64,000 bases of DNA from Pseudovirgaria hyperparasitica (taxonomy: Eukaryota; Ascomycota; Dothideomycetes; Acrospermales; Acrospermaceae), in assembly GCF_010093815.1 (NCBI RefSeq), contig NW_022985562.1, positions 1-64,000 on the forward strand, in the 5' to 3' direction. Positions 21,601-44,621 of the stretch are shown here, in pieces (positions within the stretch are counted from its first letter, which is position 1; every line of letters begins with the position of its first letter). Under the pieces are notes generated by a model. The model saw nothing but the letters and a program-made list of their open reading frames with translations, was not told where the DNA came from and did no database searches. The position numbers and the translations under genes are program-made.

Positions 21601-22513
21601 TTTAAGGTAATACTATTTAGTCTATTAAACGCACCTACTATATTCTAAAAGATAATAAATTAAGTCCTTTAACCCCTACTATATAAATCCATAGTTATAT
21701 ACCTTAATAATATTATTATCTTTTCTAAAAATATAGAAGAATACGCTAGAGTACTATTAAAAGTACTTACTCTACTCCGTAAATACCGCTTACTTACTAA
21801 TCTAGAGAAATATAGCTTTAGCTAGACCGAAGTTAACTTCTATAGATACTACGTCTTATAAGGATAACTTCGCCTAATAAAGAATAAGATTAAGATAATT
21901 CGCGAATAGCTAGAGCCTATAAACGTTAGCGAAGTCTAATAGTTCCTTAGCCTAGCGAATTATTATTAGAGGTATATCTAGGGATTTATAAGTATTACCG
22001 TACCCCTAATAGACCTCCTTAAAGAAGTAGACCCTCTTATCTATAAGTAGAAGTATAGGCCTATTTAATAGATACTATTAACGGCATTTACCTTTAAGAC
22101 CCTAAAGAATACCCTATATTCTAAACTAGTTCTAGCTTAACCTAATAAAACTAAGCCCTTCTATATTAAAATGGATATAAGTAACTATATAATTAGTATA
22201 GTAATCTACTAGGAGAATCCTAGTAAGTAGTATTAGCTAATCGCGTTTAACGGACGAAAGCTAAATAGTACTAAGCTTAACTATCTAGTTCACGAAAAAG
22301 AACTCCTTACTATTAAACATACTCTATATACTTAGAGATATCTACTAGAAATAAAGAAGACGATGATTCTAACTAATTACTATAGCCTATAGTTCCTTAA
22401 GTCTATAAAGAAATAAGAAGGCTATATAGATAGATAGATTAATAAGTTCGGAAGCTTTAATCTCGATATAAAATATCGCCTAGAATCTAAGGCGGTAGTA
22501 TCTAACGCCATTA
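18683..22513 (+). mobile_element. Gypsy element, left part: gag to RNase H (fossil)
   Basis: The degraded coding sequence reads on the + strand. A gag-like region lies around 19,300-20,250 and a CCHC zinc-knuckle remnant around 20,260-20,320. A protease-like region lies near 20,600-20,900. Reverse transcriptase follows at about 21,280-21,750, where the fingers/palm motifs around VPKPGG and the YLDD-type box can still be recognised. RNase H-like sequence fills about 21,900-22,500. The region is broken throughout by RIP. It stops at the left end of the nested DNA transposon. Confidence 0.85.
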
Positions 22514-22539
22514 CATTAGGAAAGATACAGCGCTCCCAA
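22514..22539 (+). repeat. Left terminal inverted repeat of the Plavaka-type element
   Basis: It begins CATTAGGAAAGATACAGCG and continues CTCCCAA. It pairs with the reverse complement of 44596-44621 at 24 of 26 positions, and both differences are transitions. Weaker similarity continues inward for about 18 bp (CTTCTAAG-type sequence). TA precedes it. Confidence 0.9.
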
Positions 22540-22644
22540 GTACTTCTAAGTACTCCCTAAGTATTCTTTCATCCCATTATATTCATCGGGCGGACCTACT
22601 TACTATCTATCCCAACGGGACGGCTTTATATAATTTGTACTAAG

Positions 22645-22784
22645 TATTCCGTTTATACCAAACGTCCCGTTTATACCGAACGTCCCGTTTATACCGAACG
22701 TCCCGTTTATACCGAACATACTAGTTATACTAAACGTCCCGTTTATACCGAACGTACTAGTTATACCGAACGTCCCGTTTATAC
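22645..22784 (+). repeat. Subterminal 18-bp tandem repeat, about 8 copies, cut by a gap
   Basis: Units of CGTCCCGTTTATACCGAA and variants (CATACTAGTTATACTAAA, CGTACTAGTTATACCGAA) run without interruption into the run of N. The true copy number is unknown. Arrays just inside the TIR can be transposase-binding sites in related DNA transposons, which is only an inference here. Confidence 0.9.
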
Positions 22785-23224
22785 NNNNNNNNNNNNNNNN
22801 NNNNNNNNNNNNNNNNNNNNNNNNNNNNNNNNNNNNNNNNNNNNNNNNNNNNNNNNNNNNNNNNNNNNNNNNNNNNNNNNNNNNNNNNNNNNNNNNNNNN
22901 NNNNNNNNNNNNNNNNNNNNNNNNNNNNNNNNNNNNNNNNNNNNNNNNNNNNNNNNNNNNNNNNNNNNNNNNNNNNNNNNNNNNNNNNNNNNNNNNNNNN
23001 NNNNNNNNNNNNNNNNNNNNNNNNNNNNNNNNNNNNNNNNNNNNNNNNNNNNNNNNNNNNNNNNNNNNNNNNNNNNNNNNNNNNNNNNNNNNNNNNNNNN
23101 NNNNNNNNNNNNNNNNNNNNNNNNNNNNNNNNNNNNNNNNNNNNNNNNNNNNNNNNNNNNNNNNNNNNNNNNNNNNNNNNNNNNNNNNNNNNNNNNNNNN
23201 NNNNNNNNNNNNNNNNNNNNNNNN
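22785..23224. other. Assembly gap (440 N)
   Basis: The run of N begins inside the 18-bp tandem repeat, so collapse of this repeat is the likely cause. Real length may differ from 440. Confidence 0.99.
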
Positions 23225-25440
23225 GGCCTCGTGGTAGTCTATATAGTTCCCTAGCTATATACTAATATCCGACTTCTCTTAAAAGTATACACTCTTTATA
23301 TATAGGTTAAAGACCCGACTTGAACGTCCGCCACCATCTAACTTTATTTTAATTTAAGTATTGGTCGGGGTAGATAGACTACTAGTTAAGGTAGCTATAA
23401 CTAGGGATAATAAGTTAGTAATAGACTTATTTATACTACACGTATACATACTATTATTTACCGTTCCCGCGGTTACTTAGAGCGGGTCTATACTTAATAC
23501 CCGAGATGGTATAATCTTATCCGTAGCCACTACTAGTGGTATAGAACTCTCACCCATATCTAATGGCGTATAAGATGATTCGAGGCACTTATCTAACTGG
23601 TTTAGAGTATCCGACTCATCCTTTTCGTAGTAGTTAGTACCTATATAGCCTCTATAACTTTAGTATATACTTATATTACCCGATAGCTTAGACTCCTCGC
23701 TCTCGTCTAAGTCATCTATATCTACTTTAGAGAAGTTATCTAGGTTATCTTTATATGGGTTTATATATATAGTATCCGGGTCGATTAGTGTTAGTGCTAT
23801 AAATACCGATGCTATTAGTAATTTTTAAATATAGTCGATGCGGTAGGGCGCCTAGTTCGACCATATTAGGCTTAGCGCTCGCCATTCCTCTATATAATTT
23901 AGCACGCGATTAGATAAAGGTATATATATATACCTAGTATTAGTGGAGAGCGTGCGAATCTATAGCAACCGAAGGACGAGTTCGGCGCCCGCCCGCTACT
24001 ATATTCGTTAAGGGCATGCCTTATTATAATATATATAATAGTAATCGTGGATGGTAGGATCGGTCGGAATATACTACTATAGTGCTCCTTCGATCTAAGG
24101 AATCTTAGGGACTATAGTAGAACTAACTTTAGAGCCTTAATTACTACTAGCCCTACGAACATTTTCCGAGTTACGCTAGTATTATACTAATAATTAGTAA
24201 CACGTCTAACACGACGTAAGTAATATACCTTTACTTCTATATACGCGTTATTACGTATTAGGTTACTTATACTAGCTTTTCTCTTCTTAGCTATCTCCTA
24301 GTCCTAGTGTTCGGATACTATCTATCTAACTCTAGAGAGGAGTTAGTAACGGAAGTCCATTATATCTTCCTTTACTAGCGTAATAATATGGGCGGGAGGT
24401 GTGTTTTATAAATTATAATTAAGGTAGTAGCTACTAAGATTAATATCTCCGGCGGCTGTCTAGGCCGATTATACTAGTATCCTAAAACTATCTAGGCTAC
24501 TATCTAGCTATATATTAAGGCGATCGAATACCGGTAGTAACCGGCCTAAAAACGTTATGGCGATCGAAATCTCTATTATCGCGAGGTACCGGTCTCGTTC
24601 GTAAGGCTAAAGACTATCTCTATAGGACCGCCTCTTTTCACGGATAGTTGGTTCCCTCTCTACTACTATTTCTCCACCTTCTTCTATCGAGCTAGATAGC
24701 TAATATGGTAGAGGAGAGGACGTAAGGCCGTTATATCCCCGGTTACTATTATAGTAGAATGTTACCGTGACGTCTAAGCTATATAGGGCGTTACTACCAT
24801 ATTCGCTACCGGTATACCTAGACTACTAGGTTATTAGTAGATAAACGAACGCGTCGAGATAAGCTAGGTATATATATATACGTTTTTTATGTCGATGGCT
24901 GTCGTGTAAGTCCCTATTATTAATGCTAATACGTGTCTACATTATATCGTATCTTTGTTTACCTATCCTATTTAGTTTACTATAGTTACTAGATTATCTT
25001 CTATTAGTGTTACCGCTACGGTAGCTAGATAGTCCCTTAACTATCTTCCGTGTTAGAGGTCCTATAGAGAAGATATATAAGAGATTAGTAGATATTTTTA
25101 TTAGTAATAGGTCGGTAACCTACTAGGCGATAATATTAGGTAGCGGGATAATAACTAGCTAGTAGACATGATAAAGGTTTAGGCGTAGACTAATATAGTA
25201 TTTTTATAGACGCGTGATACTTACGCGTTATTATTAATAATTTTAAGCGAGCGTATATAGGAATCAAGGGGCTAAGAGCCGGGTAGAAGTTGGGGGTTAG
25301 TGGGTATATATCGGGCTTTCGACGGGCTTACACCTAACTTCTTCCGGTATACGCCTAGAATATCCGCCGTATACCGTATTATTACCATCTACTAATAATT
25401 ATACTATGGTATTTTTCCTTTATAGTAACTACACCTCGAG
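23225..25440 (-). pseudogene. Coding-like region on the minus strand, function unknown
   Basis: Read on the minus strand, about 23,450-24,150 keeps a largely open, acidic frame (for example DNFSKVDIDDLDESEESKLS). The remaining stops are of the kind RIP makes from Gln and Trp codons. The + strand of the same stretch lacks such a frame. I do not recognise a domain. It lies between the left tandem repeat and the transposase, and it is the only coding-like sequence of the element that faces left. Borders are approximate and more than one gene could be present. Confidence 0.45.
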
Positions 25441-28400
25441 ATGCCACGGGCCGTAGTCTCCTACTAATACTATAGTAGAAAGATTAGTAGTATATACTAT
25501 ATAATCCATAGGCACTATAACTCGGAACCGTATAGACGAGCACGGCTTGCCGCATCGCTATTATTATTATAACTATTAGGCCCGTAGCTACCACTATTAA
25601 CTAGGTCATAGCGCGGCTTTAGTACTCGTAGTTATATTAGTCGATAGAACTCTTTAGTTTGCTCTATTAGTGTTTAGCCGTCGAGCGTTAATTAGGAGTC
25701 CGAGCCTATAGAATTAGATACTTCTACTACTAATATTACCCTATATAAAGATACCACTATTTTCCCTAATCCTATTTCGGACCTAGAATCTATGGATAGT
25801 GTTACTAGTAGCTATAGTACCGATTTAGTATGTTAGTCTAATATATATAGTAGAAATGCTATATCTATAGCGACGAGGGCGTCTAGTACTATATATTCAA
25901 TAAAAACGTTCGAAGAGGAGAGCGGTATATATATTATAGTAGACTAGAGTAGACGTGATAATCCGTCCGACGTAAGTATATATAGTCTAGGTTTATAGTA
26001 GTAACTAATTTAGTAGGCCCGATTCGGTTAATTCGATAGTAAGTTTATAGAGCGCCTTATAATATAGACGAATCGGTTTGGTATTTCGAATGTAGTATAC
26101 GATAAATTAACTACTATCCTTAAATAGACTTCCGCTATACCCCCTAACCTTTTTATACTAAAATCTAATATCGTGCGTAAGTAGTTATTATACTACCCTA
26201 AAGGGATACCGTACGAAAGTTAGTAGCGTAGCTACGATATATTCGGCACTACCATAGTCGAATACTAGTATAGGGATCCGCTTATATTAGTGGAATTCCT
26301 CCTTAGGTACCGACCGTTCGCTAGTAAGCTCGTGTTTAAGCCGGTACGATAATTTACTAGTTTAGGCGACCGGGTATATAGTAAAGCCTACATAGTAGAT
26401 GGTTAGTAGGATATACACGCTACTATTCCGGATGGTGCCGTTATCGTCCCTATTATTTTATCTTCGGATAAGATAAACCTTACTAACCATAGTAGTAATA
26501 GAGTAGTATGGCTAGTCTACCTATCTATTTATAATCTACCACTAAACGTCCGCTTATCTAGGAGTCTACTATTATTTCTACTACTTGCTCTATTACTAGT
26601 AGTTAAGCTAGAAACGGTAGCGAATCGCTTTATGTTCCATTAGGTTATGAGTAAAGTTCTAGCCTATATATCCGCCTATAATAGAGTCGTTAACTATACT
26701 AATTATTATATAGTGTTATAGGCTATATAGAGTACTAGAGTATTAGTATTATATACCGATGGCGGCTCGCGTAAGTACTATCCGCGTTTAGCTTTATATA
26801 TTATAGATTTTCCGGAGTAGGTGCTTATCACGGGTGTATCCTATCGGTATACATATCTAACATATATAGTCCCTAGTAACAGACGACAGTATCTACGAGA
26901 AGCCATTACTAGTATATAGAAGTTCCGCACACACTCGTCGTTATAGGAATAGATTTACCGTATACATCGCCAGTTAATAACTAATAGCCATAGTAGCGAG
27001 TACACTAGTAGTAAGACAGATGATAGGATAAGTATACCCGGTGTCTTATCGTTTTCGTCGACGTCTTTCGCGCTAGTAGTATAGGGCTATTATATTCGCT
27101 AATCGGTTAAGAGTCGGTATTCTAGTAGGTGGATAGAGCCATTAGATAATTTCGCCTGGTTACTTACTAGAGTTAATATACACCGCGCGGTCGCTCCGGA
27201 CATTCTACATTAACTATATAAGGGCATATTAGAACACACGTTTAATTAGATAGTCTCGCATGTTATTAATTAAGAGCGTACGGGACATAAGTTAAAGGGT
27301 GTATTTACTAGTATACCCCCTATAGAACGAGTAAAGAAGGCGATCGATAAGCGATTCGCGTCTATTAGGGTATTTAGTCGTCATAACCTACTTATATATA
27401 TAACTTTAGTAATATAATGGACGGGGGCAATGTTTAAGCGTATACTAGTAGTGTTTATAGTCGCGTTTAAACCGCTCCTATGTCATAATCGACACTTCCT
27501 AAGCGTAGTACGGGCGGTTATTAATATATACATGTTAGCGGCGTACTATACGCATGATACGTAGACACTAGTATACTTAGAAGAGGCTATATTACGCTTA
27601 GACGACCTGAAATACTAGTTTATACTATATTGTGGAGATAAATCAGAGGATAATCATTTTAACTTTCCGAAGTTCCATGCATTATCGCACCTGGTCGATG
27701 CCATTAAATACTATGGTTCGTTACATCTAATGTCGGTAGAGCTACTAGAGTAATCTTATATTATAGTAAAGGAATTATATCGAGGTTTAAATAAGAGGGA
27801 GACGTTTCTATAGTAGATGCTAGTAGTAGATATACGCATAATAAATACTAAAATCTCTAGTAGTATAGAGGTGGCGGCTAGTACTAGTATATTAGTAGCC
27901 TCTAGCCTAGAGTAGCTCGATAATACACGTAAGCTGGTCGGCCAGCGGCGTATTCTAAAGGAGCCACGCCGGAGTAAACATATACTCTACGTCTTATAGA
28001 GCCATAGACTATCTACGTTCTACTAGACCACCGTTAGCGACCTCTACGACGTATATAGTAGTAGTTTCATGTTACTTAATATAGTTACACCCTTTATACG
28101 TAACTGTTATAATCGGCTTATTAGGGATAATATATTAAAAGGTATAAATATCGAATGTATTAAAAAGGACCCTTCGTAGGCACGGGTCCTTTCTATCTAT
28201 ATATACGAGACCATGTACGTGCCGATACGACTAGATAGAGACTATAAATAGACGAAACGTGACCGTAGCGTTAAAACACGGGCGCGTATCGTAAGTCTAT
28301 CGCTGTCTACCGCCGCCTACCGTAGTATACCGGCATATGCCGGCATATGGCGGAAGTTATAGTTTATATATAGTAGCACTCGATAGTCGTATCCTATACT

Positions 28401-28750
28401 AGGATATCTCTAAGGAATAATCGTGGTTTATTGCGATCGGTTCTATAAAAGGCTTATATTTAATAACTATCTATAATTTTAGCTAAGGAGTATCTAGGGA
28501 TACACCTCCTTATTACCTAATAATTACTAGCTAGTATAAAAACTCTACGCCTCTAAAAGGGGTATATAGAACTTAAAGGATCCTCATTCACGGATAGAAC
28601 TAGACGCGGATAGTATTAACCTAATATAGATAGATTATATATATTAATACCCTAAAATCCGAACTATGTCTCTAGGCCCACTAGACCTAGCTCATACCCG
28701 ATTCTAATGTTTTTATTATTCGCGTTTATGCCTCGTTAGATGCCGGGCAT
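25441..28750 (+). pseudogene. Plavaka-type transposase, inactivated by RIP
   Basis: One frame can be followed from the ATG at 25441 to about 28,750 (about 1,100 codons, normal for the family), interrupted by RIP-type stops from Gln and Trp codons. Several Plavaka signatures survive. A box around 26,430-26,570 resembles the family's IVPIILSSDKT...PVYLSIGN region. A DILHQLYKG-like box lies at about 27,199-27,230. A stretch at 27,655-27,715 reads HFNFPKFHALSHLVDAIKYY, as in the conserved HFNIPKLHSLQHYV block. It is followed by an E/LYRG segment like the conserved SERLHIDYAKDAYRA. Known members are cut-and-paste transposases of the KDZ group that would act on the TIRs. The protein cannot be made in its present state. 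The C-terminal end is approximate. Confidence 0.85.
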
Positions 28751-28989
28751 ATAATAAGTCTATGGTTAAGTAAGTGTTAGGTACGTGACGAGTCTATTAA
28801 TGAATGAGTGCCGGGTATGTAACGAGTCTATATGAATAAGTATGAATGAGTATATACCGGGTATATAACGCTCTTACCAGGGAAACGTCTTCCTTAAGTA
28901 TCTCCCCCTCCTAATATTTCTCCTCCTCTTTCTTTATTCTTTCCCTAGCCTTATAAGTATAGTTAGACTTATATCGCTATATTATCGAT

Positions 28990-31890
28990 ATGTGCGTTCT
29001 TATATAGACCGTTAGAAACTACGGTAACTAGATGTACGTTCTCGTGATAGATAAATATACCGCACTAATGCGTCGCATTATTCGTGTTTAATATAAGGGT
29101 TCGCTACTACGATCATTCGTCGTTACGCTCGTCTATCTCTTCTTAATAATAGTACTAATCGATAATAACCTATTATAGAGATGATAGTTAGTATTACGTA
29201 CTTCTCTTAAATATTCGCATGTTAATATCGCATGAGCATATCCTTCGCGGAGGTCCTCTATCCTTCCCTTAAGCTACCTAGACTATCCCCTAATCGCTAA
29301 AAACTCTTATATCTAACTATTTCTACTATTTATTCCTCGGTTCTACTCGTTAGGCTTCGAACGACAGCGAACCACGATAGATTAGCGGTTATCTATATTT
29401 CGCGTACGCCGAGTTAGCATGCCTGAATATAATAGATAATAGTGTGTTTATAATAGTATATACTAGATCTTATAGTATTCCTCTTTAGCGGTAGATCCAC
29501 GTGGTCGTAAAGACGGCCTACTATCCTATCGTGCCTACATACTACGCTACTCTTTTATTATATATAGACGGTATTACTAGAGTAGGGCTATCGCCCGGTA
29601 AACTTAACGTTATATATAGAGTATTATATATTTAACGTCGTTATTTCACGTGCCCTATGTTAGTGCGGGATCGGATGCCGGCCGTATATTTCCCCGCCTC
29701 TATTAAATTAACGAGTTATTACTAAAAACCATGTAGACTACTCGCGTTAATATAGCCGTAACGTACGTGTTATACCTACGCCTATTATATAGTGTACATG
29801 TCTCGTCTCTCTATTACCCTGGTAATATATACTATTCCCTATTCCGTCTATCTATAGCTACGTCCGGCCAGCCGCGAATAAATAGCCGAGTAGAAGCGAG
29901 TCTCGACCTACTTCATATATTCAGAGCGTCCGACAGGTAGAAACTTCGGGTATACATAGAAGAGTTAATTTAGGAGGAATTTACTAGCCTATTACTAAAT
30001 CTACGTAGTAAGGAAGTGAAGGACCACCATATAAAACAAGAGTATTACCTATAGACGGTCGCGGATAAATGTATATTTATTAACGGTAGTTATACTATTT
30101 CACGGGTAGATGCCATATATTAACTTAATACTATATTCTTGGTATTTACGCGTAACTAGCGGCGGTTAGCTAAATACCATCATATACGTTAAAACGATGC
30201 CCCGGGCTAGATAAGCCGTCGTAATATTATATATACCCTATAAACCCGCCTAATATATCTAGCTAACCTAGTTATTCGACCGTCGGACTACTAGTATCTA
30301 TATCTCCTAAGGTAGCCGTGCCGCCGTGTTATATACGTATGCCTATAGTCCTTATCCGCGATCGTACTCGGGTCACCCTAGTACTAATAACGGCTATATA
30401 GAATGGCATAACGCCGTTAAATGTTAAGGGTGTAAAAATACGCGATATAGTAGGTCTTAGTATAAATAAACTATTAGAATTTATTAGCTCGTCTATAGAT
30501 ATACTAGGGGACGTAGGCGGTTATAGGCATGGTCGCGTCTACCTAGAGTACCTAATCCTACTAAGCGAGTTAAGTGATATAATCCTTCGTAAGGATAGTT
30601 TAGACTAGATGTTATAGTAGGCTATTAAATAGGCACTAGGCTTAGGACTAGATCGGGTGGTTTTCCGCGTAGGCGATATAAATAGTATATTTAGAAGCCT
30701 ACTATAACGTATTAACTATAATCTAACCATATAGAAACGTCGCGCTATGAGTATAGTAGTAGGATTTATCTATCTAGCGCGCGTAGGTAAGCTCGAGATA
30801 TATATATACCGATAGATATTGGTATATATCGATATGTTGCGACTACTAAGCGGTGTATACCGATATATGCTAGCATATCCGGTATATACCGGTATAATAC
30901 CGTCGCTCTTCCGTGGACATAACACCATTTATATATCTTAGGTTTTCGGTTATCGGTTACGTATAGTGTTATATATATAGCGGATACCTTACTAGATTTA
31001 GGTCTTTCATCGATAGTATATAGGTACGCCCTAGTCTACTCGATATAGGCGTAGTCGACGCTTTACCTACTTAAACGATAGACGTTAATGACGACGCGAC
31101 TAGTATATTTACCTATTATATTATTAGCTAGCTAACGTTATATTAGGAGAGTCGAGCGCCGCCGTCCTACCTACTCTACCTATCGATGTTAATATGCTAG
31201 CGATTATAACCTAATCGCCTTACGAATCGATATATAATGCTAGTATACTCGAGAGTTCGAGCGAACGTATAAAAGTCTAATATTATATACTATTTAGGGC
31301 CGGGAAGGAAGCGCCTACCGGCGTAGTAGTCATTAAGGCGATAGTGGAAGTCTATATATAACTAGACATACTAAGTCCGCCTCCTTCTTATATGGTCCTA
31401 TTACTAGATAATATTACTAGTTTCGATATTACGGGAGAGGAGTTTATAGACACGAACCCATGAATATTAGTATAACATCGGCTCGATAGTACGTATTACA
31501 GCATAAGGCAAGTTATATTTAAGCGGTAGTTAGACATGTACGCTAGTATACTAACGGATATATAGTATCTCTACCATGAATAGAATAGGTAAGGCATGGC
31601 TAGTAATATCTTACTATCTAGAAGAGATAGTTACCGTAGAATTTAGAAGATAGGCTCGGCGTCTATGGCGTTAGTATATCGGACGGTTGAACTTTCATAT
31701 AACACTATTCACTTATACCTATATTTACCTAAGCCCCGATTCGATAGCCTTCTATAACGTACTATATACTCGGTCGGCGAGCTACTAGACTCATATAATA
31801 GTAGTATACTACCCCACTTTATATACTGCTTAAGCTACTATTACTTTAGCCTACGTTAATCTTAGCTTCCTTTAGTCGTCCCTGTGTTAT
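28990..31890 (+). pseudogene. Large degraded frame of unknown function
   Basis: From an ATG at 28990 one reading frame stays coding-like to about 31,890, some 970 codons, with stops nearly all of the Gln/Trp-to-stop kind expected from RIP. The implied protein is rich in Arg, Tyr, Leu and Gln. I do not recognise a catalytic motif: no tyrosine-recombinase RHRY set, no HxD dioxygenase box and no P-loop. It sits between the transposase and the SF1 helicase on the same strand, so it is likely part of the element's own gene set. It could also be two adjacent genes in the same frame. Confidence 0.45.
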
Positions 31891-32132
31891 AAAAGAAAAC
31901 TTCTATAAACCTTTCCTCTACTTATCTTGGTTTTTAAACCTAAATCTTACCTTCTATACTTTATTCCGTGTTAATTACGACTATATACGAACGCTACGTC
32001 GAACTCGACTCTATTAACCCTTAAGGTCCATTCTATATAATAGTTAACGAGGTTATATTTATAGTTTATAATATGGATCAAGAACTCGTTATATTTGGCG
32101 ATATTTAGGACTAGTCTACGCTCGACGTAATT

Positions 32133-32502
32133 GAGCCTTACGTTTAAGCCGAGTCTTACGTTTAAGTCGAGCCTTACGTTTAAGTCGAGCCTTATACTTA
32201 AGTCGAGCCTTACGTTTAAGCCGAGCCTTACGTTTAAGTCGAGCCTTACGTTTAAGCCGAGCCTTACGTTTAAGTCGAGCCTTACGCTTAAGCCGATCCT
32301 TACGTTTAAGCCGAGTCTTACGCTTAAGCCGATCCTTACGTTTAAGCCGAGCCTTATGTTTAAGCCGATTCTCACGTTTAAGTCGAGCCTTACGTTTAAG
32401 CCGATCCTCACGTTTAAGCCGATTCTTACGTTTAAGCCGAGCCTTACGTTTAAGCTAAGCCTTACGTTTAAGCCGAGCCTTACGCTTAAGTCGAAGCTTA
32501 CG
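32133..32502 (+). repeat. 18-bp coding minisatellite, about 20 copies
   Basis: The unit is CTTACGTTTAAGCCGAGC with T/C variants. In the frame of the downstream helicase it reads Tyr-Val-stop-Ala-Glu-Pro, and the stop is the RIP product of a Gln codon, so the original motif was PYVQAE-like. The open frames seen in the other + frame and on the minus strand over this array are by-products of the repeat. Confidence 0.9.
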
Positions 32503-35500
32503 ATACGACCACCGTCTTAACCGATAATAAACCACTTATCTTTAGTATACTTACCGGTAACTACCGTCCTAACGACGAGTATAAACTTAAGAAGGTCCAA
32601 AGTAGTAAGGCTCCCGTTCCTACTTACGCTATCTATTAGATCTCTCTTATATAGAGCGATCTATAGTTAACCTTTAGGAATGTCTATAGTATTAGTAGAG
32701 AAATAGATAGACTTAAGTAGGAATAAGCGAAAACTCAAGCCGAGCTTAAGCTAGTAGTATTTAAGGCTCGTGGTAAAGGTCACGGCTTTAAAGAGTCGAT
32801 TAGTTGTATATATAGATTCCTTGAATTCCCTGAGTACCGCTCTTAGATTAAGTTGCGTGCTCGCTTCCGATGGATTAATAAAGGGAAATCGGTATCCTTA
32901 ATAAGCTTACTCCGCTTTAATCGTACTAATATTCTTCTATTATCCGACCACCCTACGGTGTAGATCTTTAAGGTTAAGTAAGTAGGCGACTTTATTAAGT
33001 ATTTTCCTAAACTTCCTAATCTTATTATAAGCAAAGCGGATAAAGCCAATATACTATATATTAACACCGGCCTCTACGAAGACCCTCGCGACTTTTAGGT
33101 TATTAAACTTATAGCTAGCGAGCTTCTTAGTATAGGTTTTACTATCCCGTTATATATCGGACCCGATATAATACACGAACGAGTGAAGTAATTCTTCGAA
33201 GATCTAGGTACTTATACTATAGTTCGTATCTTGCTACCGCTACGTAACCCTATGGATCTTACCGGCTTTAATAATAAGCTTAAACTAGAGAGCGATCCGA
33301 TTAATTCATGGTATATAGAAGTTACTACTCCCCATATATAATACGGTATAATAAGTAGGCCGGATACTTGGCCCTAGATCTCTATTCCCTACCGCGAGTC
33401 ATTTAATAAGAAATTTAACTACCTAATATACATCGCTATAAGCACCTTATAAGATGAATAGACGGATCTCCTATTATTCTAATTCCAAGACATTACTATT
33501 AGATATATCTAGCTCTTAGGTGTTACTCGGGCGCTCTTAGCTATCGTCTATCCCATTAATGCGAAAGGATTCCATCGCATGGAACCAGGTAGTCGTGGGT
33601 ACCTTAAAGTAGATTCAAAGGATTATAATAACGACGCGTACCGCTTTAAAGTCCTTCGATTTCGCCTAGGCGTCCTCCTATTCGAATGCCTTACTCTAAA
33701 AGTCTTTAATAAGGTTAGACGTCCTCCTAAAGCACCTAAGGTACCGATTATATTAATGGATACGGTTACTAATATAACTCGAGCTCGTCCTAAATATTTT
33801 ATTCGGACTAGCGATACTAGTTTAAGTACGATCGGGTCGTCTCTTATTACGCTTATAGAATTCACGGACGTTCCGGCTTTAGTTAGCGTATAAACCTATA
33901 ATAAGCTTACTAAGTAACGCATTAATACGTGCTAGAAACTAACCTACCATACTATATAAGCTCCTAGAGACGGTGGCGTAGACGACCACGCTACTTAGGA
34001 TGCGTTTAATGTGATGGTCCTTAATGTTATCGTAGACTTAGTATCTATGTCTCTAATGCATGGGTCCTCTAACCCTAATAACGAGATTCTAGATTATAGT
34101 ACGGAGCCTTAGGATACCCTCATTACTCTTTCTAAATTATCTATATCCCTAGATAATAATAAGAACATGAATATAGAACATAGTCACGATGTTATTAGCG
34201 ACGAAGGTTCCATTACTAGCCCCGTCGCCGATATATATACACTCCTAATATTGTCTAAAGTCCACTCTAGTATCCTATCCCCTTTGCCACCCTCCGTATA
34301 GGACCTAATACTTAGTAATAACTACCTAAATCTTTAACCCGTCGACTATAACCGCTACGTTAAAGATTATGAAAGATTCTACGATCTCTAGAATATCATA
34401 CGTTCGGAGCTATCTCCCTAATAATAGTATACCTATATATAGGCGACGGACGTACTTAGGGCTTAGTTCCTACTTCACGGCTGTAGAGGAGCTAGGAAGA
34501 GCTATTTATGGCTTCGTCTACTACTAGCTACACTTCTAATTAACGAAATGAACGGTGCTCCTATTATCACTCATACTACTAAGGTAGTTATCCTATCTAG
34601 CGATGTGATAGCGTACCTCCCTACGCTAGGTTCCATCTAAATATATAGGATATATATATATGTTATTATCGGCCTAACTAACGAAACCTACGACGACGCT
34701 ATAAGAAAAGTATATAAATATATAAGTAATATATTTACTCGCTATAAGTCTCTAAAGACACCGGTCGTTCTTCGAAGATGCCCCGAAGCCGTTAATCGAG
34801 AGGTTTTCTTTACTATAGCTAGACTATCTTATCGCGGCGACCCTCTTATCGGGCTAACCTAGGATGATATAATAGGCGGTGCCATCCTTACGTAAGTCTA
34901 GGCCGACCATAGTAAATGACTATCGGAATATAGCACGGATCCCCGTGCTCGTCTATAGAAACTATATACCGGTTACGTTGCGCTTAAGGTCGTTAGACTC
35001 GTTAAATCTCGATACTAATACGAATGGATCCCTAAGAATTTCGAGAAAGAAACGGCTCGGCTATTACGCGCTATCTATAAACGTTACGCTCGTAATAAGG
35101 ACATGCCTAAGGAGGAGCATAATAGGATGAACGAGCTATACCTCGCTACCTAGGACCTAGTTACCATCCACGCCTAGATTCATGTAGGGACCCTATATAT
35201 TATGAATATCGCCAAGGTAGCCCGTAATATATATCCGATTTTGGTCGTAATAGAAGAGGCTACGTGTATCCTTAAAAGTAATACACTTAGGATTATCGTT
35301 AATTACACTACTATGGAATAGTAACCGATATTTATTTACGTCGGCGACCTACGCTAGCTCGACACCTACTAGCGTGATAGTACTAATATATAGGCCGCGA
35401 ACTAGAGGATCTCCTTTATAAAGCGCTAGATATAATATAGTTTCCCGACTACTCGCCTTACCGAGTTAGAACGCTTAGTTCCTAGAATAATAAACGTTAT

Positions 35501-36491
35501 ATCGCTAATTACTTACTTGGGCGAGCTAACGACCTCGCCCTATATAACGAATGATATCGATATACTACTCGCAGAGACCGTTCGATAAATATTTAGAATC
35601 CGCGGCTATTGATACGTTATATACGCTAACATCGACGGGGATCACGTGTACATAGTAAATAACTTAATATATAATATAGACTTATTGCGTTTCACTTAGT
35701 GGATTATCACCGAGCTCTTCTGTTATAGCGTTGCACTTAATCGCGTGCTCTATATTTCTATATACGCCGCCTAACGTAATCTGTTTAAAGGGATAGTTAG
35801 GAACTCGCTTCTAACTATACTTACCGCAGCGGATAAAGCTTAATTTAATGCCCTACCTAAGCCGGTATAGAAGCTTATCTAATAGCGTTCATAGAACGGT
35901 TCTTAGGGTTATAATAACGATATAGTCCTTATCGATCCGGTCTAAACCAATCGCTTCGGCTTCCTCTCGGAAGTAAACCATAACGTCGTTACTATTACGC
36001 GCGCTAAATAGATAATGGTTATTATCGCTAACTTCGTATCTCTTAAGAGGTAGAAAGTCCTAGACGGCGTACTTGGCGAGATATAGAATAAGTGCTCTAA
36101 GATTCATACGATATACACGTGCACGACCCCCGACCTAGATGGTCTCCCTCTACTCTCTAACATGCCTAATCCCTAATACGGTCGCCCTATACTTAGTATT
36201 AGAGAGAGGGGAGAACGAAGCGATTAATAAACTACTAATAGTACTAAGCCCCGTAAGCCGCTAGTCTACCGTAAATATAACGTTAAAGGATATAAGTCTA
36301 TTAAGTATCTAAGAGGGTCGACACTTATATATAATAACTATTAGGACATCGGCCATAAAGCTAATGTTTACCCTAAACCCAAGACGCTTACGGGTACGTT
36401 TTACCATAATTATAGAACTACCAGTTATACTCGGCGTTATTATCCTAGCCGCACTAAATTACCAGCACGCATAAATAGTAATAATCTAGTT

Positions 36492-36575
36492 AATACTACT
36501 AGAGCTAATACTACTAGAGCTAATGCTACTAGAACTAATACTACTAGAACTAATACTACTAGAGCTAATACTACT
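36492..36575 (+). repeat. 18-bp coding repeat, about 5 copies
   Basis: Units of AATACTACTAGAGCT plus ACT-type variants repeat near the 3' end of the SF1 helicase gene and keep its frame, giving an NTTRA(N)-type hexapeptide repeat in the C-terminal tail. Confidence 0.8.
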
Positions 36576-37590
36576 AACGAAGTAACTACTAGCGGCTAGG
36601 ACGATAGAGACTACGAGGATACCGGCCGAGACGGCGGTGTTATAATATATAAAGACATGGAAGTCAATTAGTAATAGTATATAATTAGACTCACGTGTTA
36701 GGGCTACTTAGTCACGGCTTCTTAGTAAGTATACCTCTGTATCTATTTTAGTTATAGTTACGATATCCTACTAGGTAGATAGTTTAGCTCTATTAAAGAC
36801 CTATTAAGGGTATTTCTATTACGTTTACTCTAGTATAGACGCGCTATTAGATAATACGGCGCTACTAGGCACGTTAACTAGTACCTACCGATTAAGAAAT
36901 AAATATAATTCTATATCTACCGTGAGCCCCGGCCTAATAACGTAGGCTTCCTTTAGTTATCCCCTTTATACTTTTAAAACTACTTCTAGCCTTTATATTA
37001 GGAGATATTACTATCTAAAGAGAAAATATAAAAAAACATACGCCCTAATTAAAGCCTCTACCTTTAGACTTTAACTATAATATATACGGGATATAGTAAA
37101 CCTAAATATCGCGTACTTTAAAAGCATGGAAGGATACGACACTCGAATACGACGAAATATAGGCTCATAATACTCGGAGAGTACCTAGGGATAAGCATAT
37201 GAATATAAAATGGAATAAGACTAACGCGGCACCTCGTATATGCGTAGCCATGTGCCGTCCTAGACGTAGTTGCCTACGATATAATATTGCGAGATAAGAA
37301 TCATGGCTATCTAATTCTATTAAGGGTATTAGACGACATAAAGTGAATAACTACACGCCCGACCACGCCACGCCAAGTTACGTGCGTGTTATAAACGCGT
37401 GTTCGAGGAATAATAAGGATATAAACGAGGTTCACCTAGTAGGTGCCTCGTTATTCCGGCTTCTACCTCTATCGTCCGACCTATACCTCCGTCTTCCTTA
37501 CGCCCACGATATACTACGCGTATACTATATAATTAGTCCGTAAATTATAAATACTATATTAACTACACACGTTAACTACACACGATTAAC

Positions 37591-38830
37591 ATGTCGAATC
37601 CGATTCTATAACAAAGTAACCGTCCGAATATAGTAATTACTATAGTACTACTTCGTATCTTAAGCCTAGATATATAAGTAAAGCGTGAAGCTATGGAGGC
37701 GCGTATAAGGCAGCTATATATAGAAGTATATACGGCTACTCTACTCGTAGACTATGGACGTCGAACTAAGAACGAGCTCGGCGTAAAAAGAGTACGTAAG
37801 ATTATTAATAAGGTAGCGGGTAAATTCCTAGTAGTATAGGAAAGAGTAGTAGAGTGTATAGAGATAAAGGCGCTATACCATATCTATAACTAGGTACGCA
37901 CTATAGTATAGAAAACCGTATATTATAGAAAAACTATCTCCGAGTATAAGAAGAGGCGCGTAATTATAGCCCTATATCCCACGATCTTATAATCCCCGCC
38001 TATTACGACCTTATAACCTCCGCCTATCGCGACCTTATAACCCCCGTCTATTACGACCTTATAGCTCTCGTATACCACGACCTCATAGCCTATACTTATA
38101 GCGGTTCTATAGCCTACTAACGTATATACTACGAGAAAAATCAAATTCACGATTAGGTTTAACGATAACGTATTCCTCGAAATACTAGTACCTACGTCTA
38201 ACTAGTAGAAAGACTATAGCGACGCTTCGTGTGTTAATTTAGTAGTATTTATATGGCGAATTAGGGTCTAATACGTAATAAAGACTAGGAGGGCACTTAA
38301 CTAGAGCCGTACTACTATATATTCTATCGTGCTAGTAGTCGAGTATATAATAAGTAAAATAGAACTAGAGGTAGATATTAGATGGCTCCTATAGTTAGCA
38401 ATCGAATATATCCTAGAATATAGTAATAGTATAATACTCCTCGGCCTTAGATAGGATATAGATGGTATACCCGAAGTAAAACGAAATATAAACCAGCGAC
38501 TAACATATAATAGCATAGATGGCTATATATAGGTTACGCTCGAATAAATCCGCCCCTCCGTCCCTAATACTATACTTACTATAATTAGTATAATAATAGT
38601 AATAGAAAGCTACCGCCTATGACGGTAGAGATACCTACGGAGATAGTATTATAGGTAGTAGATAGTATTACCTAAACGACTTAACCCTTCCTCTAGTAAT
38701 ACTATATATACTACTATCGGCACCCGGGAAGTTGCGAGACCAATCTATAAGCTCTAAAGATAGTGACTTCGAAAGCCTTAAAAGCACCTTAGATATAGAG
38801 GATATAGATATCGCTTTTAAAGACTAATAG
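37591..38830 (+). pseudogene. Small degraded gene with 8-residue repeat, function unknown
   Basis: A frame starting at the ATG at 37591 (MSNPIL...) stays coding-like for several hundred codons, with RIP-type stops. About 130 codons in, it crosses a 24-bp tandem repeat (about 37,980-38,102, ACGACCTTATAACCCCCGCC-type) that reads as a TTLxPPPI-like octapeptide. No domain is recognised. It lies between the two helicase genes on the same strand. The 3' border is uncertain. Confidence 0.4.
37980..38102 (+). repeat. 24-bp tandem repeat, about 5 copies
   Basis: Diverged 24-bp units built on ACGACCTTATARCCYCCGYC keep the reading frame of the small gene starting at 37591. The open frame seen here on the minus strand is a shadow of this array. 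Confidence 0.75.
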
Positions 38831-39676
38831 AATAATAAAAAGGGTGCTAGAGGCAGTGAGAGTAGCGTACGTACTTGGCTAAGGCGATGCGATCCGACGT
38901 AAGACGGCTTCTACCTACTATATATCGGTATATACCCGATTCTACTAGCTATATAACTATGGTGCACATGTTCGGTTAAGACGTTACGACACTAGTATAA
39001 GCCGGCGTCTATCTAGTTTACGTCGGGATACGCCCGGTCCTACTAGCTATATTATTACTACGACTATAATCGTATAAGATCCACTCTAATAATTAAACAT
39101 TTACTTATATACTTCACTTCCTCCGCACTTATCGAAATTACGTTATAATTACTAAACGCGGCGACTTAACTCCTACCGCCTAAATCTAGTTTTCATATCT
39201 TATCGCCATTAACGCCGTCTTACTACCTATGGCCTAAGTCATATATAGGAATAGATAGATATAATAAGAGTCATGACTATCCTAGTTTAACTACCGGCCA
39301 TAGAATGGCTAACTATGACACGCACATACGACGTGCAGAGGCCTTAAGCGTTAGCGCCCTCCTACCTTATATCTAGTACCTCCGAGGCCTATACCTAATA
39401 CCTAAAATAAGTTATAATATATATAGGGCTACTATTATTAAGATAGTAAGTAAAGAAGTAGTAATAGAGCTTGAAACTAGTAGTATAGATACTACTATAC
39501 TCCATAGGATAGTTAAGGAAACCATTACTAGAGAATTTAATTAGCATATCGCGGCTATAAATGGTAAGTTAGTACCGATGGTTACGACCATAGATATAAC
39601 AGAGGCTAAACTAGATATAGATACTATAGGCATAGATACGTAGACATAGTTACCGCTAGAACATAAGGAGAAAGAT

Positions 39677-41100
39677 AATGTGGAAGATACTAAAATGGAA
39701 GACGACGTAGCTAGTATGCTTAGACATATATATATATATACGGTCCTAGATACTAACATTATCGGAGTAGTATCGAATACAGGCGCGGTTATAACCACTG
39801 ACATAGATAATCCACCTATAAATATCATCGTGCCTAGCGAAGCTTATCCACGCGTAAACATACTAGCCATAGAGATATAGTTATAGTTGCCGCCGGAACA
39901 TACGGAGAAAGAAAACGTGGAAGATACTAAAATAGAAGACGACGTAGCTAGTATACTTAGATATATATATATATATATATAGTTCTAGATACTAACATTA
40001 GAGTAGTATCGAAGATAGGTACGGCTATAACTACCGATATAGATAATCTACCTACGAATATTATCGTGCCTAGCGAAGCTTATCCACGCGTAAACACACT
40101 AGCCATAGAGATATAGTTATAGTTACCGCCGGAACATGCGGAGAAAGAGAACGTGGAAGATACTAAAATGGAAGACNNNNNNNNNNNNNNNNNNNNNNNN
40201 NNNNNNNNNNNNNNNNNNNNNNNNNNNNNNNNNNNNNNNNNNNNNNNNNNNNNNNNNNNNNNNNNNNNNNNNNNNNNNNNNNNNNNNNNNNNNNNNNNNN
40301 NNNNNNNNNNNNNNNNNNNNNNNNNNNNNNNNNNNNNNNNNNNNNNNNNNNNNNNNNNNNNNNNNNNNNNNNNNNNNNNNNNNNNNNNNNNNNNNNNNNN
40401 NNNNNNNNNNNNNNNNNNNNNNNNNNNNNNNNNNNNNNNNNNNNNNCCATAGAGATATAGTTATAGTTACCGCCGGAACATGCGGAGAAAGAGAACGTGG
40501 AAGATACTAAAATGGAAGACGACGTAGCTAGTATACTTAGATACATATATATATATATAGTCCTAGATGCTAATATTAGAGTAGTGTCGAAGATAGGTAC
40601 GGCTATAACTACCGATATAGATAATCTATCTACGAATGTCGTCGTGTCTAGCGAAGCTTATCTACGCGTAAATATACTAGCTATAGAGATATAGTTATAG
40701 TTACCGCCGGAATATACGGAGAAAGAGAACGTGGAAGATACTAAAATAGAAGACGACGTAGCTAGTATACTTAGACACATATATATATATATATAGTCCT
40801 AGATACTAATATTAGAGTAGTATCGAAGATAGGTACGGCTATAACCACCGACATAGATAATCCATCTATGAATATTATCGTGCCTAGCGAAGCTCATCCA
40901 CGCGTAAACATACTAGCCATAGAGACATAGTTATAGTTACCGCCGGAACATGCGGAGAAAGAGAATGTAGAAGATACTAAAATGGAAGACGACGTAGCTA
41001 GTATACTTAGACATATATATATATATATAGTCCTAGATACTAACATTAGAGTAGTATCGAAGATAGGTGCGGCTATAATTACCGATATAGATAATTCCCC
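39677..41100 (+). repeat. Tandem repeat of about 237 bp (79 codons), 6 or more copies
   Basis: Copies begin (GTGGAAGATACTAAAA) at 39677, 39918, 40153, 40497, 40731 and 40967, and 40153 and 40497 are separated by a gap. Spacing is 234-241 bp. The variation comes from a TATATA tract inside each unit, so neighbouring copies are not always in the same frame. The array is the N-terminal part of the SNF2-like gene. Confidence 0.9.
40177..40446. other. Assembly gap (270 N)
   Basis: The gap lies inside the 237-bp tandem repeat, so the number of repeat copies in the genome is unknown. Confidence 0.99.
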
Positions 41101-44099
41101 TATAAATACCGTCGTGCCTCTAGATACCGGCGAGACTTACCTACGGCTGCTAGAAATAAAGAGGACACTCTTGGATAATATAGTAAACCTAGTCGATTCT
41201 CCGAAACGCCTAAAACTAGAATATATTATACTACTAGATGTCGACTAGTAGACATATGAAAACCAGGAACTGTTCGGGTTAGTAGATAATTTATATAGTA
41301 GATATATATCGGATAGTACATTAGTGAACGGCCTTGACTTTAAAATCCTTTCTATAGACGACGACTCTAACGGAGATGAAGTAAAGCTAGATATAGAGAA
41401 CTTAATTCCGGTAGATAACGATATTAGTACGAAACTATAGAAAGCGTAAGTTATACTAAGAAGTAAGTAGGAATATACACTACCATACTAATATACCTAT
41501 AGAATATTCGCCGTTAATAACTCCGATAAAGTAGTCTAAGCTATCTCTTATTATACGGAAGAGATACGGTCACTTACTATAAGTATATTTAGGCTTACGC
41601 TAGACGACCTAATAAAGGAGTTCAGCCATACACCTACTCTATATCCAGCCTTTAGTATAAGTAGGTTATATAGGCTATAGGCCGGCCAGTTACTCGCGGT
41701 AGTTACTATATTTAAGTAGCGGGCGGGTCCGTGGAAGTGCTAGATCTTAGTAGATAGCCTAGGGCTAGGGAAGATAATCGTGCTTATAACGTTCATCCGC
41801 CTCGCGTTTTATTAGGACTTTCTACGCGATAATATAGAACTTAATCTAGGAAATTATCTATAACCGACTTAAGACTCGGGCATAGATAGGAAGTACCCGA
41901 TATAATCTCTGCATCCGATTAAATGTCCGTGTAGCTAGACTAATGATTTCGTCTATATGCCCCGCCTTTAAGGACTATTTATACTATGCTACCTAAGGTC
42001 CCTTCTAATAGCGCATTGGCCGTAGCGCTTTAAATAGATGTATAATAATACGGATAGTATGTTCACCGATTAAATCGATAAACGGAACCTAATAAAGATG
42101 ATAGTACGGCTAGCGTACTCGAAAACCCTTACCGACGCCCCTAGTATCTAATAATTCTCATATATAGACCGATAATACTTAGCTAAGAGATGCCCACACC
42201 CCGAATGGGAATATAGCGTCGATATTAGTAATACTACTAAATTCGAGACCGACGAGGAGTGTATTATTAGGGCATGGTCGATTCCCGTTAATAGGACCGC
42301 TACCACCGAATTTCCGTCACGATACACGAAGAACCATATAATCTATAGCACCGTCTAGAGTATAGAACCCTAATATCTTAAATCTTTTAAGGGACGCGTG
42401 GTTATAAGAGTAAAGAGGGCGAAACAATTCGGTACTAAAAACACTTAAACTTGCGAAGTGGCATTCCTCGGTATATTAATGGTAGACGAGTTCCATTCTA
42501 CAAAGAACCCCGATATAAAACAGTATAAATATGCGATATATAATGCCCTTATATTTAGTATATAGGTTAGTGTAACGCCCCTCTCGAATAGTCTAGTAGA
42601 TATTCTAGCGGCTATTAAGGCAGGTGCTCTAGATAAGTTACCCGACTACGTCGACGATAATACTACTAAAAGGGTATTCGAGAGCCTATAGAATAAAACT
42701 ATAAGGAAGATTATTATAACGTGGTCGAATAAACTCCTTAGTTTAATAAAAGGCAAGCCGGTGGATACGATGGCCGCGATAGTCCGTAGGGCATTAGAAA
42801 CCATAGAAGGTAAGTGCACACTACGTATAGTAGCCGATTAGTATTTACTATTCGTCCTATAACGGGGACTACTAACTAAATGGTTTAATGGAGAGGCATG
42901 TCTATCTACGACATTAAAGCTAGTAGTAGAGTTTATATCTATCCCGGCTATAGAACTAGAGAAGATAATCGTACGGTCATACGAGAATAGAGGTAGATAG
43001 TTTAATAATCCATAGCCTAACGGAACGCCGCGGGACTTATAGATATAATCTACCGCCTAGAGTAAATCGAAAGGGGGTACCGGGTCCGGGCTCAACGCAT
43101 ACTACCATTAGGCCAGGCTAGCTACTACGTGTATACTACTTATATACCTTACCGATAAAAAGATAGAAGACGAGTAAATTAATATCACGCTCACGCGTCG
43201 GAGGGATGGTAATAATAGTATACTAAGTAAGATAATTACCAATCCCGTACGCGAAGCGCTCCTATAGCTAGATAAGGCTATACGAAAGAAGATAGTATCG
43301 CTAGCTAATAAACACGCTTCGAAGGTAAACTAGATCCGTAACTTTATTAATAATAACGTTTATAATAAAAGTACTAGACGCGCGCGATGAATATCCGCCG
43401 ACCGCCCGGAGAAAATTATACTCGCATATACCGTACCGGTAAGCTTGATGTTCCTATACTTAGTGAGTGTTTATACTGCCTACTAGTAACGTAATTTACT
43501 AATATATATAGGTACTACGTCCATATGTATAAGCGAAAATATTAGTATATTTACTAGCCGGCCTAAGTATGTCCGAATCAAATAAGGTATATAGATTATT
43601 TAGGTCGACTAAGTCGGATTCTCCGTGTATTCTACTAGTATTAGCTTCGTAGGTCTACGAAGGATAAGACCTAATAGTCGCCGGTTTTATAGTGTTAGTA
43701 GACTAATGCTTACATAAGGAGACGTGGCCGTAGGCAAGTATAAGACATTATCGCCATAGATAATATCGGCCTATAGTATATGCGTATACTTTAATTTTAG
43801 ACTATTTAGAGGTCGAGGCTAGACTCGCCGCGTTAGGTAAGGTAATTGAAAGCACGAGGACATAAGCCTTAGACCTAGGAAAAGGAGATATAGCTACGGT
43901 AGAGATAGCCACACCTAATATACTAGTAATAGGCGTACGCTTTAATCCTATAGAGATATAGTAGTATAGAAGTAAGTAAGGTAGTCGGTTAATTAGCTTC
44001 TAAGAGACTAGATAGCATGGTAGTATAAATATAAACCGCTGTTTACTCGTGATAACATGTCTATATATATCTATACATAAAGAGAAATAAGATATTTAT

Positions 44100-44590
44100 T
44101 CTATACCATTATATAGTAGGACGTTACTATATATACCGGCATACAACGGAATATTCCGACATACGCCGGTATATTATAGGATATTCCTAGATACTCGAAG
44201 TATAGTCGTAGTATAAAGTAGCATTACTATTATATGCCGGCATATAGTAGAACGTTACTACATATGCCGGTATATAACGGGATCATGTTCTAATATACTA
44301 TACGCCGCCGGTATATTATAGAATATTCCTAGATACTCGAAGTATAGTCGTAATATAAAGTAGTATCGCTATACTATGCCGGCATTTAGTAGGACGTTAC
44401 TATATATGCCGGCATATAACGGGATTAAACGTTTTCTTAACGTTCGATAGAACGATTCTAAAAGAACCAGGACGGCTCTAGGAGAACTAGAACGACTCCG
44501 GGAGGACTAGGACGACTCTAGGAGGATTGGGATAACTCTAGAAGTACCGGGACCCATTTAGGATAACTTTAGAAGTACCGGGAGACCTAG
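44100..44590 (+). repeat. Right subterminal repeats of the Plavaka-type element
   Basis: About three diverged copies of a unit near 125 bp (with GTAGGACGTTACTATATATGCCGG and TACTCGAAGTATAGTCGTA-type blocks) span about 44,110-44,430. A shorter array of 18-24 bp units around CTCTAGGAGRACTRGGACGA fills 44,450-44,590 up to the right TIR. The units differ from those of the left subterminal array. Confidence 0.75.
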
Positions 44591-44595
44591 AAGCA

Positions 44596-44621
44596 TTGGG
44601 AGCGCCGTATCTTTCCTGATG
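44596..44621 (-). repeat. Right terminal inverted repeat of the Plavaka-type element
   Basis: Its reverse complement begins CATCAGGAAAGATACGGCG and continues CTCCCAA, matching the left TIR at 24 of 26 positions. TA follows directly, mirroring the TA before the left TIR. Confidence 0.9.

Follow-up and report, generated by a model that had tools for sequence, protein, structure and literature searches.

A 22.1-kb segment of the 64,000-nucleotide stretch of DNA analysed here (the window) is, with high probability, a complete but dead cut-and-paste transposon of the PlavakaB type, with a CACTA/Transib/RAG1-like DDE transposase, that carried helicases as genes of its own and was multicopy before RIP. 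For a known type it is unusually large and rich in genes; it is seen as one dead element and sits at a TA between the RNase H and the integrase of an older Ty3/Gypsy element.

Insertion into a Gypsy retrotransposon

The interrupted retrotransposon comprises:

18551–18682, plus strand: 5´ LTR (93% over 133 bp with 49601–49732 by self-BLAST)
21376–22434, plus strand: reverse transcriptase and RNase H (Pfam), left of the insertion
45085–45471, plus strand: integrase core (PDB matches), right of the insertion and in the same frame as the reverse transcriptase and RNase H
49605–49735, plus strand: 3´ LTR, then AAGAC

AAGAC stands outside both LTRs (a 4-bp AGAC if the LTR is taken one base longer). 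The left half contains the Pfam domains RVT_1 (E 5.7e-12), RT_RNaseH_2 (E 1.5e-18), and RT_RNaseH (E 1.8e-14). Pfam gave no match for the integrase, and all 13 of the 13 PDB matches to this stretch (E up to 10; best E 0.011) are integrases or Pol. On both sides of the insertion the pol frame is the one with the fewest stops (58 versus 82 and 91 on the left, 53 versus 95 and 89 on the right), and it runs on once the inserted element plus one TA is removed. That length, 22,110 bp, is divisible by three, as is likely enough by chance alone.

Borders of the element

The termini and repeats of the inserted DNA, and the interrupted Gypsy pol frame, define the following features:

22514–44621, plus strand: whole PlavakaB-type element, 22,108 bp including two N runs (TIRs, TA, RIP, interrupted pol frame)
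22512–22513: left TA target-site duplication (sequence inspection)
22514–22539, plus strand: left TIR, starting CATTA, with similarity extending to about 45 bp
22649–22784: left subterminal array of 18-bp tandem repeats, continuing into the N run at 22785–23224
39631–41119: array of 236-bp tandem repeats, containing the N run at 40177–40446 and repeating the region at the start of the SNF2-like frame
44164–44425: array of 142-bp tandem repeats at the right end (tandem-repeat scan)
44448–44541: right subterminal array of 20-bp tandem repeats (tandem-repeat scan)
44596–44621, minus strand: right TIR, reading inward as CATCA
44622–44623: right TA target-site duplication (sequence inspection)

The matching 26-bp TIRs with TA on both sides that the earlier note had described are borne out: the left TIR and the reverse-complemented right TIR are identical at 24 of 26 positions, each is immediately bordered by an outer TA, and self-BLAST extends the similarity at 87% (22512–22557 versus 44623–44580). 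With three mismatches permitted, a 21-bp TIR pattern occurs exactly twice in the window, while the maximum in 100 shuffles was zero. None of 200,000 random pairs of 26-mers drawn from 17001–50000 reached 24 of 26 (best 19); pairs less than 100 bp apart or containing N were skipped, and their number was not counted. In DNA so rich in A and T, a TA duplication may well arise by chance. The exact length is provisional because of the two N runs inside the element, both of which adjoin or sit inside tandem repeats. We regard the 22 kb as a genuine giant PlavakaB element with exactly defined ends.

RIP and the unity of the 22 kb

The RIP ratio, (CA+TG)/(AC+GT), is 1.22 and 1.21 in the host flanks, 0.325 in the element, and 0.065 and 0.059 in the two Gypsy halves. 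Copy number rather than age could be the cause of the contrast between the element and the Gypsy halves. CpA-type RIP, together with an Abp2-domain gene in the flank, plausibly fits an ascomycete. Change points fall at 22289 and 44664, 225 and 43 bp from the ends of the element. Between them RIP is homogeneous (p 0.71; 21 of 22 one-kb bins), with no gradient from end to centre (Spearman 0.02, p 0.88; 41 of 44 half-kb bins). With RIP stepping at both ends and uniform in between, the segment acts as a single unit. The earlier proposal of a complete, TIR-bounded element with several genes that underwent RIP after insertion is supported.

The alternative that survives best, and which we still consider improbable, is that a smaller Plavaka element later received other mobile elements or fragments of host genes, such that the 22 kb is a composite and the helicases are foreign. 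Other mobile elements such as Helitrons also carry helicase genes, as stated in part of the literature on such elements (PMC6431247), and the interior holds several tandem arrays as well as the two N runs. However, the RIP profile is flat across the same 21 one-kb bins, while the change-point scan does find steps at the ends, and self-BLAST at E 1e-3 detected within the element neither a second distant inverted pair (local palindromes only) nor an LTR-like direct pair (only tandem or near-by repeats). These two results also speak against borders of other elements inside the 22 kb, which the earlier note had named as grounds for giving up its reading. Exact inverted pairs of at least 14 bp lying more than 300 bp apart number 45, of which the 15 longest, those inspected, are TA-rich runs, and Pfam searches of six frames of 23299–44621 gave no other transposase, Rep, or reverse transcriptase. 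These comparisons would miss an element that was nested and underwent RIP simultaneously.

A little less probable still is that a single-copy 22-kb segment suffered RIP by leakage from the repeated Gypsy sequence around it, with no multicopy Plavaka family here. RIP is known to leak out of repeats, and the window shows a single copy. Leakage should nevertheless weaken with distance, and the RIP ratio is flat, from 0.324 at 0–2 kb from the nearer TIR to 0.331 at 8–11.1 kb. A formerly multicopy element that moved as one unit remains the preferred reading.

Transposase and classification

The transposase is encoded by a long frame near the left end:

25441–28806, plus strand: Plavaka transposase frame, 1,122 codons with 63 stops (Pfam PF18759)

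The earlier note had reported a Plavaka transposase frame of about 1,100 codons and had made its reading depend on a match to the Plavaka profile. The length and the family both hold: residues encoded by 26251–27243 match PF18759 (Plavaka) with E 6.5e-33 and 114.8 bits against a cut-off of 26.3, covering positions 42–322 of the 325 in the profile. The frame is not open, its longest run without a stop being 77 codons. By eye, and from the motifs of the family, we take the D codons at 26467 and 26806 to be candidate catalytic residues, and presumably HALSH (27676–27690) is the HxxxH motif, the E in VELLE (27736–27750) the catalytic glutamate, and YLTY (26854–26865) the place of C(2)C. Both HALSH and VELLE fall beyond the stretch matched by Pfam, and the catalytic E and HxxxH are assigned by motif reading. 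An AlphaFold model of the transposase core made without an alignment had a mean pLDDT of 36.1 and was not used.

Placement of Plavaka in the KDZ group, as assumed earlier, has been superseded: according to the parts of the 2025 revision considered here, Plavaka belongs to the CACTA/EnSpm-Mirage-Chapaev-Transib clade (Kojima, 2025; PMC12730594). The same parts give PlavakaB termini as 5´-CATCA..TGATG-3´ with a 2- or 3-bp target duplication, PlavakaA termini as TGT..ACA, and target duplications of 7 bp for Kyakuja and 8 bp for Dileera (PMC12730594). The element has CATCA at its right end and CATTA at its left, a single RIP-type difference; TA on both sides, within the Gypsy frame; and the PF18759 transposase domain. 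Its CAT..ATG ends are not the TGT..ACA of PlavakaA. Assignment to Kyakuja-Dileera-Zisupton was rejected, as PF18758 was absent from six frames of 23299–44621 and the duplication is 2 bp rather than 7 or 8.

Genes carried by the element

Besides the transposase, the following frames and stretches were recorded:

23971–24402, minus strand: DUF6532 domain (PF20149), 144 codons with 6 stops, E 7.4e-6
29700–30900, plus strand: weak coding-like stretch in two frames (codon score only)
32700–36599, plus strand: putative SF1 (UPF1/ZNFX1-like) helicase frame, 1,300 codons with 63 stops (AAA_12, PDB, codon score)
37000–38550, plus strand: weak coding-like stretch in two frames (codon score only)
40982–43587, plus strand: putative SNF2-like ATPase frame, 868 codons with 42 stops (weak PF00176; motifs I, II, and III)

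The earlier count of at least five other coding-like frames, four of them oriented with the transposase, can be reproduced with these five, DUF6532 on the minus strand and the rest on the plus strand; only three have a Pfam match. Codon score peaks also occur in tandem arrays (32.1 kb and 39.2–40.0 kb) and in a minus-strand frame at 22951–24150, and the number of frames therefore depends on what is counted. Stops break every one of the four gene spans in which they were counted.

The case for a putative SF1 helicase as cargo is a fair one. AAA_12 matches at 35445–36032 (E 1.2e-5; 25.5 bits, slightly below the curated cut-off of 27), and the frame matches PDB 9q9z, NFX1-type zinc finger-containing protein 1, with a whole-sequence E of 0.0015 to which two weak stretches contribute jointly (0.34 for the better one by itself). 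Its codon score comes from training partly on that same frame, and the SF1 motif pattern arose in 12 of 1000 shuffles. The SNF2-like ATPase is a weaker candidate: PF00176 matches at 41729–42613 with E 0.094 and 12.2 bits, far under the cut-off of 24.9, PDB gave no match to the frame, and motifs I, II, and III appear in order, as they do in none of 1000 shuffles, with a pattern picked after seeing the frame. DUF6532 scores 26.4 bits against a cut-off of 24, and the codon score of its own frame is weak. In two Ganoderma species, the seven domains described as additional include both DUF6532 and the Plavaka domain. In the two weak stretches no Pfam domain was found, at 29700–30900 or at 37000–38550, and PDB searches with one frame each of 29400–32099 and 36900–38999 gave no match. 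A Pfam match to DNAJC11 (E 0.018), presumably due to chance, indicates the noise level. ARAGORN found no tRNA in the window, and no Rfam match there reached the gathering score.

That the element carried cargo to serve the host, as Starships do, is very improbable: size and gene number would fit, yet Pfam found no DUF3435 captain in six frames of 23299–44621, where a heavily RIPed one might escape, and those accessory genes that can be recognised code for nucleic-acid ATPases rather than for metabolic or resistance functions.

Discussion

We suggest that the PlavakaB transposase, after binding to the TIRs and to the tandem arrays next to them, would have excised the element and inserted it into a TA site with a 2-bp stagger, and that the SF1 helicase and SNF2-like ATPase probably travelled as genes of the element. 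At least one other copy presumably existed, because RIP hit the whole element evenly, and RIP would afterwards have broken the element genes. More tentatively, we infer that both ATPases may have aided the element and not the fungus, the likeliest roles being strand processing and the opening or remodelling of silenced chromatin.

The element shares with PlavakaB its PF18759-type transposase, CATCA..TGATG termini, and 2-bp duplication, and differs from the families published in the parts of that study considered here in its 22-kb size, its SF1 helicase, SNF2-like ATPase, and DUF6532, and its probable ascomycete host (Kojima, 2025; PMC12730594). Those families were reconstructed from various Agaricomycotina; the TET+ elements of Ascomycota are reported there only as Helitron and IS3EU, and the main text names a helicase once, for Helitrons, and SNF2 never (PMC12730594). 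Here a Pfam search of six frames of 23299–44621 gave no TET/JBP dioxygenase, but it may miss the PE type, which is described as highly divergent.

Precedents for giant Plavaka and CACTA elements come from other eukaryotes, as far as the sources go. The Plavaka giant repeats of Amoebidium are ichthyosporean, form tandem clusters, and contain many tyrosine recombinases; the main text mentions neither helicase nor SNF2, and the passages considered do not name terminal inverted repeats (PMC11244446). Enlarged families of En/Spm (CACTA) elements, 16–20 kb long and with 4–5 ORFs, are described from the red alga Chondrus crispus, alike in broad clade, size, and gene number, but they are En/Spm instead of Plavaka and have an algal host (PMC6431247). 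En/Spm elements have CAC..GTG ends and 3-bp duplications (Kojima, 2025; PMC12730594). The Starships of Pezizomycotina are likewise large, gene-rich, and ascomycete; in the partial literature considered their classification is based on a tyrosine recombinase instead of a DDE transposase, and they are reported at up to about 700 kb. In the literature searched, whose coverage is partial, we found no description of a giant Plavaka in an ascomycete.

The captain of a Starship is a tyrosine recombinase (DUF3435). Pfam gave no match of this kind in six frames of 23299–44621, where a strongly RIPed one could escape, and assignment to Starships was rejected.

Searches of viral contigs gave six pattern stretches for the transposase protein, none confirmed, and no hits for a generic Plavaka motif or the TIR; the TIR was also absent from prokaryotic genome contigs. 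These zeros say little about relatives, because the collections are viral and prokaryotic.

It is possible, if somewhat doubtful, that giant PlavakaB elements form a lineage of their own in ascomycetes, with DUF6532 and a conserved module of two helicases, one SF1 (UPF1/ZNFX1-like) and one SNF2-like, as a counterpart of Starships with a DDE transposase. The ATPases could then have dedicated functions in aiding transposition or countering chromatin silencing, comparable to the role proposed for TET/JBP in other Plavaka elements.

The nested, RIP-stamped structure illustrates that RIP intensity can reveal the borders of an element without a second copy. If relatives share this layout, the large gene-carrying mobile elements of ascomycetes would not be confined to Starships, and Plavaka, known mainly from mushrooms in the literature considered, would extend to giant elements bearing helicases of their own.

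Ends of the element and its insertion site

The ends of the giant Plavaka-type DNA transposon are defined by terminal inverted repeats (TIRs), and a check of the TIRs and of the flanking TA dinucleotides showed that the coordinates proposed in the earlier note (22514-44621) are exact. Of the 26 positions at 22514-22539, 24 match the reverse complement of 44596-44621; the similarity extends to ~45 bp, and TA lies immediately outside both TIRs. Pairs of 26-mers were drawn at random 200,000 times from the AT-rich region, leaving out those that lay close together or contained N; none reached 24 matches, the top being 19. A 21-bp TIR-derived pattern, with 3 mismatches allowed, has only two sites in the window, the two termini, and none in 100 shuffles. 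Subterminal tandem arrays, which are usual in CACTA-type elements, lie inside both ends. Two N runs (22785-23224 and 40177-40446), each within or bordering a tandem array of the element, are probably assembly gaps.

Features of the element and its surroundings
About 18551-18682 and 49605-49735: Gypsy LTRs, ~132 bp, the 133-bp repeat pair
Inside the left end: subterminal tandem array, 18-bp unit
Inside the right end: subterminal tandem array, 20-bp unit
25441-28806, plus strand: transposase frame, 1,122 codons, 63 stops, longest open run 77

The element sits inside a Ty3/Gypsy retrotransposon, which it splits in two. A 133-bp repeat is present in two copies (18546-18678 and 49601-49732; 93% identity), and AAGAC is found outside both Gypsy LTRs; with the LTR taken to be one base longer, the duplication shortens to AGAC (4 bp rather than 5). 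In the left flank, reverse transcriptase (RVT_1, E 5.7e-12) and RNase H (RT_RNaseH_2, E 1.5e-18) share a single frame that ends at 22434. In the same genome frame, the right flank has integrase matches at 45085-45471, where a PDB search at E <= 10 gave 13 matches, every one an integrase or Pol, the best with E 0.011; the Gypsy integrase had no Pfam match. Reverse transcriptase, RNase H and integrase follow the gene order of Gypsy elements. The element plus one TA measures 22,110 bp, which is divisible by three, and of the three frames the shared one has the lowest stop counts: 58 vs 82 and 91 left of the insertion, and 53 vs 95 and 89 right of it. This continuity of the Gypsy frame across the insertion allows an empty site to be inferred and is evidence for both borders that does not depend on the TIRs. 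The Gypsy element as a whole (18546-49740) is strongly mutated by RIP and has short LTRs; its integrase side, at ~5 kb, is longer than needed for integrase alone.

RIP of the element

RIP in the window is of the CpA type. With tandem arrays masked, the element has a (CA+TG)/(AC+GT) ratio of 0.325, between the values for the host flanks (1.22 and 1.21) and those for the Gypsy halves (0.065 and 0.059). Counts of CA+TG per 250-bp bin range from 0 to 4 in the flanks (20 bins) and from 4 to 14 inside the element (22 gap-free bins examined; two mostly-N bins were excluded). A single change-point search, blind to the TIR positions and run over 19501-30000 and 38001-48500, placed one step at 22289, 225 bp from the left TIR end, and the other at 44664, 43 bp from the right one. 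Inside the element, the RIP level of a half-kb bin is unrelated to how far the bin lies from the nearer end (Spearman 0.02, p 0.88; 41 of 44 bins, the other three holding too few sites). The level is also homogeneous (chi-square 16.1, p 0.71; 21 of 22 one-kb bins, one being dropped). Steps at both ends and a homogeneous interior indicate that the 22 kb were mutated as one unit, apart from the Gypsy element. The evenness of RIP right to the middle suggests an element that was itself once repeated in the genome, rather than leakage.

Further out, the window start (1-1000) is AT-rich (GC 0.34) and shows mild signs of RIP. Ordinary host genes, identified by Pfam, occupy 50000-64000: a mitochondrial carrier, a GFO/IDH/MocA oxidoreductase, an Abp2-domain protein (PF09441, E 5.3e-46) and a weak GH5 match under the cut-off. 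The Abp2-domain gene and the CpA type of RIP are each compatible with an ascomycete of the Pezizomycotina, though they are no proof of one.

Transposase and other coding-like frames

A Pfam survey of 23299-44621, translated in all six frames and divided into 12 pieces, returned six families at E <= 1: Plavaka transposase (6.5e-33), DUF6532 (7.4e-6), AAA_12 (1.2e-5), DNAJC11 (0.018), SNF2-rel_dom (0.094) and pKID (0.16). The DNAJC11 and pKID rows were taken as chance. The frame of about 1,100 codons described in the earlier note stands as a transposase frame of RIP-mutated DNA, not as an open one, given its stops. Candidate catalytic positions come from our own reading of the motifs.

The AAA_12 match lies in the frame 32700-36599 and scores 1.5 bits below the cut-off. 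The same frame matches NFX1-type zinc finger-containing protein 1 (ZNFX1) in PDB, with a whole-sequence E of 0.0015 built from two weak stretches (best single 0.34). Together, these matches give fair support to a predicted UPF1/ZNFX1-like SF1 helicase; a simple pattern for SF1 motifs II-III was present in 12 of 1000 shuffles. Slightly upstream of the frame is an 18-bp tandem array (32133-32502, 20.6 copies), open on both strands. The identity of the putative SNF2-like ATPase is weaker. Its Pfam score is far under the cut-off and a PDB search with the frame gave no match; ATPase motifs I, II and III occur in order, an arrangement that none of 1000 Markov shuffles reproduced, the pattern having been picked after viewing the sequence. 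Several copies of the start region of this frame make up a 236-bp tandem array (39631-41119), whose unit length is not divisible by 3. A codon score was trained on the transposase, SF1 and SNF2 frames, and is hence circular for those three. It rises weakly at 29.7-30.9 and 37.0-38.5 kb; it peaks too in tandem arrays and in the minus frame 22951-24150 adjoining DUF6532.

Classification, precedents and proposed mechanism

In Kojima (2025; PMC12730594), Plavaka is split into PlavakaA (TGT..ACA, 2 bp) and PlavakaB (CATCA..TGATG, 2 or 3 bp), and is shifted from KDZ into the CACTA/EnSpm-Mirage-Chapaev-Transib clade; the KDZ placement in the earlier note is thereby superseded. The termini and target duplication of our element fit PlavakaB, as does its transposase domain. 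Giant forms are already on record for this clade: Plavaka giant repeats of up to 50 kb in Amoebidium (PMC11244446) and, in Chondrus, En/Spm elements that measure 16-20 kb and carry 4-5 ORFs (review, PMC6431247). For Ganoderma boninense and G. leucocontextum, PMC8955403 names DUF6532 and Plavaka among seven example domains called additional. The literature searched, which covers the relevant papers incompletely, yielded no giant helicase-bearing Plavaka from an ascomycete.

We suggest that the element would have moved by DDE cut-and-paste at TA, using its TIRs and subterminal arrays, and that the helicases may have served the element by processing strands or opening chromatin. The element would once have had one or more further copies, and RIP would have inactivated its genes.
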